A stretch of DNA of 64,000 nt from Sphingobacterium hungaricum (GTDB lineage Bacteria; Bacteroidota; Bacteroidia; Sphingobacteriales; Sphingobacteriaceae): assembly GCF_015210005.1 (NCBI RefSeq), contig NZ_MU158698.1:1971479-2035478 (forward strand). Reading direction: 5' to 3'. The stretch's first letter is position 1; each line of letters begins with the position of its first letter. Both the position numbers and the translations under genes were made by a program. This document shows, in pieces, positions 35,529-40,650 of this stretch. Below the pieces are notes generated by a model that worked only from the letters and a program-made list of their open reading frames with translations, searched no databases and was not told where the DNA came from.

Positions 35529-35942
35529 ATGGCTACTTCAAAATTTTACGCATTAACCCATTCTAAATGCCCGCGCTGTCACGTTGGCAAAATGTTTGAA
35601 GGTCCTGTTTATGGATTGAAAAAACAAAAAATGAATGAAACCTGCCCGCATTGCGGATTTAAATTCGAAATCGAGCCAGGATACTTTTATGCAGCGATGT
35701 ACGTTAGTTACGTTTTTTCGGTAGCTCAAATTGTTACCTTAGGATTGGCAACAGCTTATTTTACCCAAAGCGAATCGCCTTTTCTCTACTTAGGCGTTTT
35801 ATTTTTTACGATACTGGTATTCGCCCCCTTCAATTATCGGTTTGGACGATTGATTCTTTTGCATTACTTATCTCCGAAAGTAAAATATTCTCCCAAATAT
35901 GAGGAGCAAATCAAAGAATCCGAAGATCAACCTACTTCTTAG
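35529..35942 (+). CDS. DUF983 membrane protein
   Basis: A 137-residue protein with two zinc-ribbon-like pairs (KCPRCHVGKMFEG and CPHCGFKFEIEPG) and two or so membrane helices (YVSYVFSVAQIVTLGLATAYF and YLGVLFFTILVFAPF). This is the DUF983 layout. In many bacteria DUF983 genes sit beside cytochrome oxidase genes; here none is near. Function unknown. It overlaps the convergent DUF4286 gene by 11 bp. Confidence 0.85.
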   Translation: MATSKFYALTHSKCPRCHVGKMFEGPVYGLKKQKMNETCPHCGFKFEIEPGYFYAAMYVSYVFSVAQIVTLGLATAYFTQSESPFLYLGVLFFTILVFAPFNYRFGRLILLHYLSPKVKYSPKYEEQIKESEDQPTS

Positions 35943-36225
35943 GAAGGTATTTCATCACACTGTCGAATAAAAAAATCTTTTCTGCGAAATGTTGCTGAAT
36001 GTAGGCCTGAAGCTCTGCTACATGATTGGCTTTGATGTCATCAATAGATTCTTCTGTTGGAACTTGGAATTGAATGCAGAATGTATTTCCTGGGTGTGGA
36101 GAATCGAGCATTTCTAATACATGATAAGGATAATTGCTCGCCGACAAAAGCTCATTTTCAATATAGGAAACGATTGAATTGTCTAGATTCTCTTCAAGAA
36201 TAACAGAAATATTGTATAAAAACAT
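35932..36225 (-). CDS. DUF4286 family protein
   Basis: A 97-residue ferredoxin-like protein: MFLYNISVILEENLDNSIVSY at the start, FCIQFQVPT in the middle and LQAYIQQHFAEKIFLFDSVMKYL at the end. This fits DUF4286, small soluble proteins of unknown role. It converges on the DUF983 gene, and their last 11 bp overlap. Confidence 0.8.
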   Translation of the reverse strand: MFLYNISVILEENLDNSIVSYIENELLSASNYPYHVLEMLDSPHPGNTFCIQFQVPTEESIDDIKANHVAELQAYIQQHFAEKIFLFDSVMKYLPKK

Positions 36226-36367
36226 GCCTCAAAATTACTTCTTTTATCCCTATTTTTCGGTTGTGATTTTGTAATTTTAATCTTCTGCCCCTGTAAAAAT
36301 AAAGTTGCAGTGCTAATTTTATGTTAAATATTTTGAATATTTGAAATTGTATAAATATAATCTATCG

Positions 36368-38257
36368 ATGTTGAGGGATTTCGGGTTTTTGTTGGTTGTC
36401 GCTTTTGTTTTTCTTATGGTTTCCTGTGATTCGGTTTCCAAGAAAAATGAAGTAATTCCTATTGAAGATTTTTTTGCAAAGTCGGATAAATCAAATTTTA
36501 AGATTTCTCCAAACGGGGATAAAATTGCTTATTTAGGCCTTCACGACCATTGTAAAAACATTTTTATATTAGATTTAATCAATAAAGACTCATCGAAACA
36601 ACTGACTTACCAGTCGGATATGAACGTTCAGTATTATTTCTGGGCGGATGATCAGACGATTGTTTTCTCCAATACCCAAAATCAAGATGATAGCCTTAGG
36701 CTATACACGATTGATGTTGAAACCGAAAGAAGGCAAGCCCTTTTAAAAACTGCAAACTATAAATTACGCTGGTTATATCCGAATAAATCATTTAATGGAG
36801 GATTGTTAGCGACAACAAATGAACGCGATTCTTCGGTATTTGATCTTTATCGCGTGTATCTGGATGGACGACCAAAGGAAATGGTTGACAAAAACCCAGG
36901 AAATATCATCAATTGGTTTGCATCAGCAGATGGGCAAGTTCGATTGGCCTTGACCAGTGATAGTGTGCAAGAAACCCTTTTGTACAGGCCTTCTGAGGAC
37001 CAAGTATTCAAGCAAGTGTATAAAAGCGGTTTTGAAACGTCCGTTATTCCGCTAGGATATTATAAAAATTCTACGACGCACATCTATGCATTATCGAACA
37101 TTGGCCGCGATAAATTGTCGTTGGTTGAATTTAACACAAGCACAGGAGAAGAGATCAAAGAGATTTTCAAATCTCCGAATGTGGATGTGAATAAAGAAGG
37201 ATATTCAGCGCTGCTGAATGAAATGATGTACGCTTCGAGTACGGTTGACCGTAAAAAGCTGCATTTTTTCAATGATTCTTATAAAAAAGCATACGATCAG
37301 ATTAAGATAAAATTCCCAAATACAAGTATTGACTTTTTGGATGTGGATTCTTCGCTGAGTCATTTCGTGTTTAAGAATACGATTGATGTCCAGCCGAATG
37401 ATGTATACTATTACAATTCCAAAACCAACGATATTCAGCTGTTAGCCGAATCGAATCAAAAATTCGAAGAAAATCAGTTGCAACCGATGGAATCCATCGT
37501 GTTCAACGCTAGGGATAATAAGGAAATCCATGGATACATCACCTATCCGCCAAATAAACGGAAGAATTGTCCAGTTGTGGTATTGGTTCATGACGGGCCT
37601 TCGAAGCGCGATTTTTGGGAATACAATACGGAAGTTCAATTTTTGGCAAATCGGGGATATGCTGTTTTTCAGGTGAATTACAGAGGCTCTACTGGATATG
37701 GAAAGGAATTTTGGTCAAGCGGATTTAAGCAATGGGGTGGCAAGATTCAGGAAGATATAACTGATGGAGTAACTTGGTTGATCCATGAAGGTATTGCAGA
37801 CAAAGAACGCATTGCCATCATGGGAAGCGGTTTTGGCGGTTATTCGGCCTTGCATGCAGCCTGTTTTAATTCAACGCTGTATTCCTGCGCGATTTCTTCT
37901 TCGGGATTCACGAATCTATTTACCTATTTCAAAGAAATTCCTCCGTACTTAAAACCCTATGTGCAGATGTATTATCAGATTATAGGGAACCCAGAAACGG
38001 AATCTGAGCTTTTTAAATCCATTTCTCCACTATTCCATGCCGATCAGGTCACTATGCCTTTGTTGATTTTTCAAGGAGGACGGGACAAATACAGCTCCGC
38101 AACGGATGTCGACCAGTTTGTTCAGAAACTAAAGCAGAGTAAAGTAAATGTTCAATATATTTACAATGAAGAGGAAGGACGGCGATTTAAAAACGAAGAA
38201 AATTTAATAGCCTATTATCAAGAAATCGAACAGTTTCTTTCTGAAAACTTAAAATAG
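36368..38257 (+). CDS. S9 prolyl-oligopeptidase-like lipoprotein lacking catalytic Ser and His
   Basis: About 629 residues from ATG 36368, with lipobox MVSC (Cys20). Residues about 30-380 form a seven- or eight-bladed propeller-like part; the last 250 are an alpha/beta-hydrolase domain (VVVLVHDGPSKRDFWEY, VNYRGSTGYGKEFWSSG, LLIFQGGRDKYSS). The nucleophile motif reads GSGFGGY, so the Ser of GxSxGGY is Gly488. The His of the EGHGF-type motif is Arg605 (EGRRF). The Asp is kept (Asp573). The HGGP motif reads HDGP. It is therefore probably a catalytically dead S9 peptidase on the outer side of a membrane. Seven bases separate it from a histidine kinase gene. A TTG at 36341 is an alternative start. 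Confidence 0.88.
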   Translation: MLRDFGFLLVVAFVFLMVSCDSVSKKNEVIPIEDFFAKSDKSNFKISPNGDKIAYLGLHDHCKNIFILDLINKDSSKQLTYQSDMNVQYYFWADDQTIVFSNTQNQDDSLRLYTIDVETERRQALLKTANYKLRWLYPNKSFNGGLLATTNERDSSVFDLYRVYLDGRPKEMVDKNPGNIINWFASADGQVRLALTSDSVQETLLYRPSEDQVFKQVYKSGFETSVIPLGYYKNSTTHIYALSNIGRDKLSLVEFNTSTGEEIKEIFKSPNVDVNKEGYSALLNEMMYASSTVDRKKLHFFNDSYKKAYDQIKIKFPNTSIDFLDVDSSLSHFVFKNTIDVQPNDVYYYNSKTNDIQLLAESNQKFEENQLQPMESIVFNARDNKEIHGYITYPPNKRKNCPVVVLVHDGPSKRDFWEYNTEVQFLANRGYAVFQVNYRGSTGYGKEFWSSGFKQWGGKIQEDITDGVTWLIHEGIADKERIAIMGSGFGGYSALHAACFNSTLYSCAISSSGFTNLFTYFKEIPPYLKPYVQMYYQIIGNPETESELFKSISPLFHADQVTMPLLIFQGGRDKYSSATDVDQFVQKLKQSKVNVQYIYNEEEGRRFKNEENLIAYYQEIEQFLSENLK

Positions 38258-38264
38258 CTTCACT

Positions 38265-39923
38265 GTGGCAAAAGTAGATGTTAGATACAGAAAGAATTTC
38301 GGGCTTCTGATTGCTTTCTTAATTGTGGTCACTTTGCTTTACGTGGTCACTGTTTTGCTTGGCAGAAATTTGATGACCAATTTCGTTGAAGCTGAATTTA
38401 ACAACCGAAAAGCCGAAGTCTTTGACGAAACCATTAAGCCCTTTAATGATTTCTTCTACTCAAAAATTCCTGAAGTTTCTTATTATCAAGGTTTTTTGGA
38501 TGTAAACCAAGCTTCAGGCATCTCCAACACCATTCTGCGAAAGAACCCATTCATCGAGAAAATAGTTTTCTACGATATTCTATTTACCAATAATCGATTG
38601 CTGAGTCCAGGAATTAGTTTTAATAATCTTTTATTCCACCCCAAATCAACCTACACATTTAATCTGGATCCAGAGAATAAGCTAGTTAAAACCAAATTGA
38701 ATGCAGAATTGACGAAACAATATGCCGATGACTTCAATAACATGGCGATTAAGGTCGTTAGTTTTTTAGACCGAGTGAATTACAGCAGTAGAATCAGCGA
38801 TGCGGATTTGTATAAGGTTTATTATTCGGTCAATCCGGGCAAGATTACCTATTTGAATATTCCAAGAAAATCCGATTTGCTTTCTTATAAGAATTTAATG
38901 GAAGACCCGCATGCGCCGTTAGTCGAATACGAGCAAGATTGGTTTATTTTTCTTGTCGACCCTCAAAAACTGGCGGTGGTCAATCGCTTTACGAATCTTT
39001 ATGAATCCATAGAAATTATACCAGTAGTCAATTCGAGTTTGAATGATGATGCGAATAGTATCATAACCGAATTTCCACTTCCGGGTGCACTATCTGACTA
39101 CAAACTGTCCTTTAAAACTACAGTTTCACATTTGACCAAAGAAATTAACCGACGATTTATTCCTGTTGTATTTGGTGTGTCAGTTTTGTATATTGTATTG
39201 TTGATGATTGCCTATTTGATTAACAGAAATATATTGATAAACAGCAAGTTGTATAGGTTGCAGTATGATTTTATCAATAACCTGACGCATGAATTTAAGA
39301 CTCCCGTGAGCGTAATTAAGATCGCAGGAAATAATATTCAGAGTGCCGACAGGTTGTCTGATGAGGAGCGTCAAATGTATGGCAGGATTTTAGACCAGGA
39401 AGCAGATAAGTTAAATAATTTGATGAACAAATTGTTGTCATTTTCACAGATTGAAAACAAGTCCATCAAATTTAAAGCGGAACGAATTGATCTAAACGAT
39501 TTCTTTGATTCAATATTTAGCGCGATAAAACTTAAGTATCCTGACTTGCAATTGGATTACTCGGTGAATGTCGAAAAAGATTTGTACGCGGATCCTGTAT
39601 TGTTGTCTTCTGTTTTTCAGAATTTAATCGACAATGCATACAAGTATTCGGAGCCTGACAAGAAATTTCTTAGTGTCAAGGCACAACAAAACAAAAAAAA
39701 TATTGTTATTACTTTTGAAGATAAAGGAATTGGAATAAATAAGGTTGAATTTAACAAAATATTTAAGAAATTCTATAGAGTGAAAAACCAGTTTAATCAG
39801 CAGGGAAGTATAGGTCTAGGATTAGCTTTCTGTAAAGAGGTAACTGAATTTATGGGAGGAGAGATTAAAGTGGTCAGTAAACAACACGAAGGAACAACCT
39901 TTACTTTGATTTTCCCAGTGTAA
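38265..39923 (+). CDS. membrane histidine kinase
   Basis: A 552-residue sensor kinase starting at GTG 38265. Helix 1 (LLIAFLIVVTLLYVVTVLLG) and helix 2 (FIPVVFGVSVLYIVLLMIAYLI, near residue 300) frame a large periplasmic domain of about 260 residues with no family I recognise. Then come the HisKA helix with His342 (NLTHEFKTPVSVIK), the N box QNLIDNAYKYS, and the G boxes FEDKGIGI and GLGLAFCKEV. The gene follows the dead peptidase and precedes the regulator by 13 bases. One operon is very likely. Confidence 0.94.
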   Translation: MAKVDVRYRKNFGLLIAFLIVVTLLYVVTVLLGRNLMTNFVEAEFNNRKAEVFDETIKPFNDFFYSKIPEVSYYQGFLDVNQASGISNTILRKNPFIEKIVFYDILFTNNRLLSPGISFNNLLFHPKSTYTFNLDPENKLVKTKLNAELTKQYADDFNNMAIKVVSFLDRVNYSSRISDADLYKVYYSVNPGKITYLNIPRKSDLLSYKNLMEDPHAPLVEYEQDWFIFLVDPQKLAVVNRFTNLYESIEIIPVVNSSLNDDANSIITEFPLPGALSDYKLSFKTTVSHLTKEINRRFIPVVFGVSVLYIVLLMIAYLINRNILINSKLYRLQYDFINNLTHEFKTPVSVIKIAGNNIQSADRLSDEERQMYGRILDQEADKLNNLMNKLLSFSQIENKSIKFKAERIDLNDFFDSIFSAIKLKYPDLQLDYSVNVEKDLYADPVLLSSVFQNLIDNAYKYSEPDKKFLSVKAQQNKKNIVITFEDKGIGINKVEFNKIFKKFYRVKNQFNQQGSIGLGLAFCKEVTEFMGGEIKVVSKQHEGTTFTLIFPV

Positions 39924-39936
39924 CTAAACATGCATT

Positions 39937-40650
39937 ATGAATAAAAAAGATATAACTATAGCTGTTATTGAGGATGATGAAAATTTAAGATTTTTAATCA
40001 GTCACCGTTTGAAAACTGAAGAATATGAAGTCATTCAATCGGGCAACGGCTTAGAGGGCGAAAAATTAATATTAAAGAGAAAACCAGATATCGTTCTTTT
40101 AGACTGGATGTTGCCAGGAAAAGAAGGGATTGAGGTCTGTCAGTCTTTGCGCGACGCAGAGTTTGAGAATGTCATTATTATGATTACGGCTAAATCTCAG
40201 GACGTGGACAAAATCGACGCTTACAGTTTAGGCGTAACCGATTACATCACAAAACCGTTCAATATGGACGTGTTGGTGGCTATGATTGAAAATAAAGTAC
40301 GCTATTTCATTCCGAAAGGAAATACCGATGTTTATAATTTTGGAGATACAGAACATCATCCATACATTCATTCGCTCGTCAGAGCAGGAAAGAAAATTGA
40401 GCTTACCATTTTGGAAAACCGGATTCTCTTGCATTTCTTGCAAAATAAAGGCAGAGATGTCACTCGGGAAGAGCTAATGGAAGTGGTTTGGGGATACAGT
40501 TCCAACGTCAATACGCGCACCTTGGATATGCATGTGGTCCGTTTGCGGAAGAAAATTGAGACCAATCCGGACAAGCCACATTTCTTGCAAACCGTTAGAG
40601 GTTTGGGCTACAAATTTATAGAAGACGAAGTAGTAAAAGAGAACGATTAA
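39937..40650 (+). CDS. OmpR-family response regulator
   Basis: A 237-residue regulator: receiver domain with acidic pair EDD (12-14), phospho-acceptor Asp56 (IVLLDWMLPG), Thr in MITAKS and Lys in ITKPF; then a winged-helix DNA-binding domain (LTILENRILLHFLQNKGRDVTREELMEVVWGY, RTLDMHVVRLRKKIE, FLQTVRGLGYKF). It is the partner of the kinase 5' of it. A strong terminator follows at 40695. Confidence 0.96.
   Translation: MNKKDITIAVIEDDENLRFLISHRLKTEEYEVIQSGNGLEGEKLILKRKPDIVLLDWMLPGKEGIEVCQSLRDAEFENVIIMITAKSQDVDKIDAYSLGVTDYITKPFNMDVLVAMIENKVRYFIPKGNTDVYNFGDTEHHPYIHSLVRAGKKIELTILENRILLHFLQNKGRDVTREELMEVVWGYSSNVNTRTLDMHVVRLRKKIETNPDKPHFLQTVRGLGYKFIEDEVVKEND

Follow-up and report, generated by a model that had tools for sequence, protein, structure and literature searches.

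Organisation of the operon

The window analysed here, a 64-kb stretch of Sphingobacterium hungaricum DNA, carries an operon of three genes encoding an S9-fold lipoprotein, a histidine kinase (HK) and a response regulator (RR). The features of the locus are the following:

36292..36309, + strand: promoter-region element TGTAAAAATAAAGTTGCA, 76 bp before the S9 start, an imperfect dyad TGTAA-N8-TTRCA
36368-38257, + strand: S9-fold lipoprotein gene, 629 aa, ORF intact, first gene of the operon
37829..37831, + strand: codon GGT for Gly488, which replaces the nucleophile Ser
38084..38086, + strand: codon GAC for Asp573, the retained triad acid
38180..38182, + strand: codon CGG for Arg605, which replaces the catalytic His
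38265-39923, + strand: HK gene, GTG start, 552 aa, intact
39937-40650, + strand: RR gene, OmpR/PhoB-type, 237 aa
40694-40731, + strand: intrinsic terminator hairpin, 17 pairs, T9 tail, -26.8 kcal/mol, z -9.2

Re-reading the open reading frames reproduced the coordinates, the intact 629-aa frame and the seven-base gap between the S9 stop codon and the HK GTG start (both on the + strand) that a first-pass annotation of this DNA had reported, and the strong terminator that it had placed after the OmpR-type regulator is borne out by the hairpin listed above. An Rfam scan of the operon region gave no match. Divergent from the operon lies a 97-aa ORF (35932-36225, - strand), absent from the first-pass annotation, which presumably resembles DUF4286; many Sphingobacterium loci have coding-like sequence upstream of the operon in the same frame as this ORF (M-Y/F-L-Y-N-I-S).

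The lipoprotein has a predicted S9 fold without nucleophile and base

The first gene encodes a protein whose signal peptide ends in VSC, with the lipobox Cys20 invariant in an alignment of 51 relatives. A beta-propeller (approximately residues 31-372) is followed by an alpha/beta-hydrolase domain (approximately 376-629), and both are present in the AlphaFold2 model (pLDDT 89.5). The Pfam match to PF00326 is strong (4.8e-40, 137.8 bits versus a cut-off of 22.6), and the top Foldseek match is the S9C acylaminoacyl peptidase 5l8s (E 9e-38, TM 0.73/0.76), which is the nearest solved structure in sequence and fold over both domains. Profile, architecture and Foldseek thus place the protein in Peptidase S9 (PF00326) as a fold and sequence family. 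The scores shown for the NCBIfam equivalogs Dpp5, lasso isopeptidase, RprY, PnpS, PhoR and PorY were all far under the curated cut-offs.

While 5l8s has the catalytic Ser and His, the window protein lacks both. In the pairwise alignment Gly488 falls on the nucleophile Ser of 5l8s (GSGFGGY versus GGSYGGY), Arg605 on the catalytic His (EGRRF versus EGHGF) and Asp573 on the triad Asp, so that the two substitutions and the retained acid described in the first-pass annotation are confirmed against a solved enzyme. These substitutions return in dozens of species and are therefore not a matter of chance. The annotation had also named a better-fitting Ser and His elsewhere in the protein as the finding that would speak against it; none aligns, which rules out an alternative triad, and the alignment of the dead Sphingobacterium clade contains no newly conserved nucleophile or His near the site. 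The residue preceding the nucleophile position varies freely (T/S/K/A/N/Y/E/R). Judged on both the 5l8s and the family alignments, the window protein does not carry the Ser-Asp-His set of an active S9 serine peptidase and is, at the level of its sequence, an S9C-like fold without nucleophile and base. With these residues lost, the gene kept by selection and triad-bearing relatives in existence (see below), it classes by sequence as a pseudoenzyme.

The kinase carries a dCACHE-like sensor

The HK consists of a first transmembrane helix (residues 14-32), a periplasmic sensor (approximately 36-300), a second transmembrane helix (301-319), a HisKA domain with His342 and a HATPase_c domain (Pfam matches 4e-10 and 1e-23, respectively). 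Hydropathy and motif checks agree on two transmembrane helices and on a complete set of catalytic boxes (His342, N, G1, F and G2). Pfam searches assign the sensor to no family, in keeping with its earlier description as an unrecognised periplasmic domain; none of the 32 Cache/dCache members scanned matched it, and a sequence profile search of the PDB with the sensor gave no match. In its predicted model (pLDDT 86.8) the stretch between the membrane helices forms a long helix and two alpha/beta modules. Foldseek ranks double-CACHE domains from chemoreceptors and histidine kinases first, with weak scores (best E 2.2e-3, TM 0.33-0.39). The topology, a long helix with two PAS-like modules, fits dCACHE; because the Pfam test failed, we call the sensor dCACHE-like rather than a member of that family. 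dCACHE domains usually bind ligands themselves.

The RR is an OmpR/PhoB response regulator, with a receiver (Response_reg, 2.4e-24) that contains the phospho-acceptor Asp56 and the Lys of TKPF, and with a winged-helix Trans_reg_C domain (1.8e-24). Among the trio loci of Sphingobacteriaceae its identity is 59-83%.

The trio is a core feature of Sphingobacteriaceae

Of 401 Sphingobacteriaceae genomes, 388 encode an S9 relative (E < 1e-80), and the order S9-HK-RR is kept nearly without exception in loci from more than 20 genera, among them Sphingobacterium, Parapedobacter, Daejeonella, Hufsiella, Pedobacter and Rhinopithecimicrobium. All examined S9 copies of the kinase-linked clade lie directly upstream of this HK and RR, and wherever the contig permitted the check no copy of this clade lacking a kinase neighbour was seen. 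The downstream genes greA-HIT-DedA-ppa are common only to Sphingobacterium, Parapedobacter and close relatives, and the trio is intact in genera where none of the four adjoins it; the linkage is therefore more than slow drift of gene order. The HK sensor was found in 10 of 295 genomes of the class by single-sequence search and in 11 of 396 genomes of the phylum by profile search, all of them Sphingobacteriaceae, and among 149 genomes of the class no RR match at 1e-55 lay outside the family. The S9-HK-RR trio is a core feature of Sphingobacteriaceae, and the tie of the S9 gene to kinase and regulator, first proposed from the window, holds throughout the family. In the open-access papers searched we found none on this system.

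The catalytic triad was lost repeatedly

The set of linked S9 proteins comprised 162 sequences, including that of the window. The full Ser-Asp-His triad is kept in 24 of them. In the others the nucleophile position holds Gly, or rarely Arg or Asn, and the His position of the triad-less copies is occupied by K/R/F/T/A/Y/N/S and others, while only three linked copies have lost the Asp. The Ser codons at the nucleophile site in relatives are all AGY, one step from Gly (GGY), Arg and Asn codons. Six linked copies read Gly-Asp-His and only one has Ser without His (Ser-Asp-Ala), and therefore Ser was usually lost first. The Ser-Asp-Ala copy, from a Pedobacter-like genus, is nested among Gly-Asp-Ala relatives; its Ser is probably a back-mutation (GGC to AGC) with which activity was not regained.

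On a tree of 88 rows, built after the catalytic columns had been removed, the triad state changes at least 9-10 times, with nine changes forced by well supported branches; counting losses only gives 13 events. A single origin of triad loss is rejected (AU test p 1.4e-47), since grouping all dead copies costs 629 log-likelihood units. The unlinked S9 relatives that branch off basally have intact triads, which makes loss the direction of change. As a control we used 40 unlinked S9 domains from the same genomes (four trio genomes and part of a fifth set). The nucleophile Ser is present in every one of the 40, including one with GGSYAG in place of GxSxG; the loss thus goes with the kinase-linked gene rather than being general to S9 proteins in these bacteria. 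The nearest S9 relative unlinked to the kinase (L067, G004:C1:16875-18686) has 36% identity and an intact triad, and is probably the nearest ordinary enzyme for comparison.

These counts bear on a check proposed in the first-pass annotation, whether Gly and Arg are constant wherever the gene sits beside the kinase. They are not: with 24 linked copies bearing the full triad and varied replacements elsewhere, Gly/Arg is ruled out as a fixed signature of kinase linkage. Kinase-adjacent relatives with a full triad had themselves been named as evidence against the proposal, and their presence alters the account of the S9 gene but does not end it. The better reading of these alignments would be an ancestor with two functions that was followed by repeated loss of catalysis.

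The S9 gene is under strong purifying selection

We estimated dN/dS from 19 close pairs, 18 within Sphingobacterium and one from an intact-triad lineage. Values for the S9 gene were 0.016-0.098 with a median of 0.039, compared to medians of 0.018 for HK and 0.006 for RR, making S9 the fastest of the three. This amounts to strong purifying selection, as expected from the idea that selection keeps the gene though the residues of activity are lost, and the relaxed selection that would have argued against that idea was looked for by dN/dS and not seen. Dead Sphingobacterium and Parapedobacter copies conserve the hydrolase domain to the degree seen in intact ones (3.29 versus 3.18 bits per column), with a near-invariant pocket frame (NYRGSTGYGK, FGG and HxGP). 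The His loop is eroded in the other dead clades (1.78 versus 2.80 bits).

Two Sphingobacterium genomes have a frameshift in the S9 gene (1449-3436 of L073, genome G137, and 3503-5400 of L075, genome G184), while their HK and RR genes are intact. Either these frameshifts reflect sequencing error or slippage, or they are a real loss, in which case S9 would be dispensable there. The L073 frameshift sits within seven consecutive G, where a sequencing error is a possible cause.

A conserved dyad precedes the operon

The dyad GTAA-N8-T[T/G]RCA occurs within 150 bp upstream of S9 in 81 of 81 loci of the Sphingobacterium/Parapedobacter type, compared to an expectation of 0.01 per locus. It is also found upstream of S9 in 26 of 64 other loci, and 15 of these 64 have a second upstream form, GTATTYTAAATGTTAC or close to it. 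When each genome was scanned, the near-exact element was found essentially once, at the trio operon, and it has one match in the 64-kb window. Copies elsewhere in the scanned genomes occur only at the level of the reversed-pattern control, which rules out a wider regulon read from the near-exact element; such a regulon would need more degenerate sites. The dyad is a candidate binding site for the regulator, and its position and conservation fit autoregulation of the trio operon.

A model for the trio and its alternatives

From the anatomy of the operon, its linkage, the selection on S9, the multiple losses and the conserved upstream element, all of them direct observations, we propose a three-component envelope system in which the S9 lipoprotein is a non-enzymatic accessory receptor acting on the dCACHE-like kinase sensor, a reading to which we assign a probability of about 0.6. 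The S9-fold lipoprotein would be anchored in a membrane and face the periplasm, where it would dock on the dCACHE-like periplasmic domain of the neighbouring HK. There it may set HK activity according to its own presence or to a ligand in the old active-site cleft, of which a peptide or acyl-amino compound is the probable kind. The HK would then phosphorylate the OmpR-type RR, which probably acts on the upstream dyad to autoregulate the operon and may control further genes. Since the gene is strongly selected, kinase-linked and repeatedly able to dispense with its enzymatic activity, a second role in the kinase pathway is the simplest reading, and so a shared non-catalytic role would have preceded the repeated catalytic losses. 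The ancestor would have been an active peptidase in which the non-catalytic role was already established; from then on catalysis would have been dispensable, and about ten losses would have followed, in most of which Ser gave way to Gly before the His went. The more specific history, in which a system particular to this family arose as the peptidase became a co-receptor of the kinase before its chemistry was lost, and some ten independent losses followed, we hold tentatively and at slightly less than even odds. Against the accessory-receptor reading count the weak Foldseek scores behind the dCACHE assignment, the frameshifted S9 in two genomes and the lack of further near-exact dyad copies from which a regulon could be read.

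The main rival to the accessory-receptor reading is that the genes are only co-regulated: the lipoprotein would be an envelope scaffold or binding protein and a target of the two-component system, and the kinase would sense its ligand directly through the dCACHE-like domain. That the Foldseek matches of the sensor are mostly ligand-binding chemoreceptors speaks for this possibility, as do the conserved dyad near the promoter, which fits autoregulation, and the two genomes in which S9 is frameshifted beside an intact HK and RR. It also gains from a mirror-tree comparison that gave no signal specific to S9 and sensor, the partial r between S9 propeller and HK sensor (0.30) not exceeding that between the propeller and the unrelated neighbour DedA (0.34); an initial positive result, obtained by matching regions of like evolutionary rate, fast or slow, proved unspecific with neighbour-gene controls and was rejected as support for contact. 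Yet a mere target should part from the kinase somewhere among hundreds of species, and no such case was seen where the contig could be checked, so that we regard co-regulation alone as unlikely, though the most serious of the alternatives.

Far less probable is that the term 'dead' is wrong and the protein still hydrolyses a substrate through other residues or a water-based mechanism. The fold, the oxyanion-region motif, the HxGP loop and the Asp are all retained, and esterase action is possible for other S9 proteins and alpha/beta hydrolases. Against this, nucleophile and base are both gone, the residue before the nucleophile is free to vary, no new conserved Ser, Cys, Thr or His has appeared near the site in the dead clade, and the replacements of His are diverse in other dead clades. 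Moreover, putting Ser back into DPP10, an inactive animal relative discussed below, did not bring activity back (PMC4350108), and therefore such sites tend to be dead in several ways. We give least credence of all to relaxed selection, that is, to activity having drifted away in an outgoing gene whose peptidase was no longer needed. S9 does evolve faster than HK and RR, His replacements are diverse and the His loop has collapsed in the dead clades outside Sphingobacterium, and the frameshifts in the L073 and L075 genomes point the same way; but dN/dS is 0.016-0.098 in dead copies, a full-length relative persists in 388 of the 401 genomes, and dead Sphingobacterium and Parapedobacter copies match intact ones in hydrolase-domain conservation. 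For the Sphingobacterium clade, with dN/dS far below 1, relaxed selection is refuted.

Comparison with known systems

Here a lipoprotein is co-encoded with an HK and an RR and the linkage is conserved, as in accessory-lipoprotein two-component systems, and by analogy we file the trio with QseEGF and MtrAB-LpqB. LpqB, the lipoprotein of the latter, also has a beta-propeller; it is not known to be an S9 protein or to carry a hydrolase domain. The actinobacterial mtrAB-lpqB operon likewise encodes an RR, an HK and a lipoprotein, and LpqB modulates MtrB (PMC5487470); unlike in the trio, the sensor is of an unrelated kind and the phylum is different. In the QseEGF system (GlrK-QseG-GlrR) of Enterobacteriaceae and Pseudomonadota, lipoprotein, HK and RR also share one operon, in which the lipoprotein QseG activates the kinase QseE by binding to its periplasmic domain (PMC12691602, PMC6075780). 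This is an analogy of working: the families of lipoprotein and sensor are unrelated to those of the trio, the gene order is different, QseF drives sigma-54 promoters whereas the trio RR is OmpR-type, and the contact between QseG and QseE is known whereas that between S9 protein and kinase is suggested by analogy. Because the QseG-QseE and LpqB-MtrB analogues are known, a periplasmic accessory role of the S9 lipoprotein is plausible.

The closest structural analogue of the S9 protein of the trio is DPP10. Like it, the S9B proteins DPP6 and DPP10 combine a propeller with a hydrolase fold and have lost the Ser (to Gly in DPP10), and they are accessory subunits of a membrane partner, the Kv4 channels, which is the role we propose for the trio protein. 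DPP10 is inactive by the Ser to Gly change, and a fly ortholog that binds the same channel is still a peptidase (PMC4350108, PMC4873792). DPP6 and DPP10 differ from the trio protein in being animal S9B proteins bound to an ion channel rather than an S9C-like bacterial lipoprotein beside a kinase, and DPP10 keeps the His that most trio copies do not. The evolutionary pattern is that of the fungal pseudonucleases Dis3L2/Ssd1, in which a second function came first and the nuclease was then lost at least four times independently (PMC8097288). These are unrelated RNA-binding proteins of fungi, and independent losses are more numerous in the trio S9 protein.

Significance

The trio S9 proteins should not be labelled S9 peptidases in annotation without caution. 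To our knowledge, pseudoenzymes are mostly single historical events in which tolerated loss of activity is hard to tell from selected loss, and so many independent inactivations within one fixed operon are unusual. The trio operon combines about ten independent losses with several closely related intact copies and an unchanging partner kinase, which opens the question to part swaps between culturable, mostly harmless soil bacteria. If our reading is true, the operon would be a natural replicate series of the conversion of an enzyme into a receptor, in which active and dead versions serve the same kinase signalling, and a kinase sensor family that has no Pfam name and is nearly universal in Sphingobacteriaceae would gain its first function.
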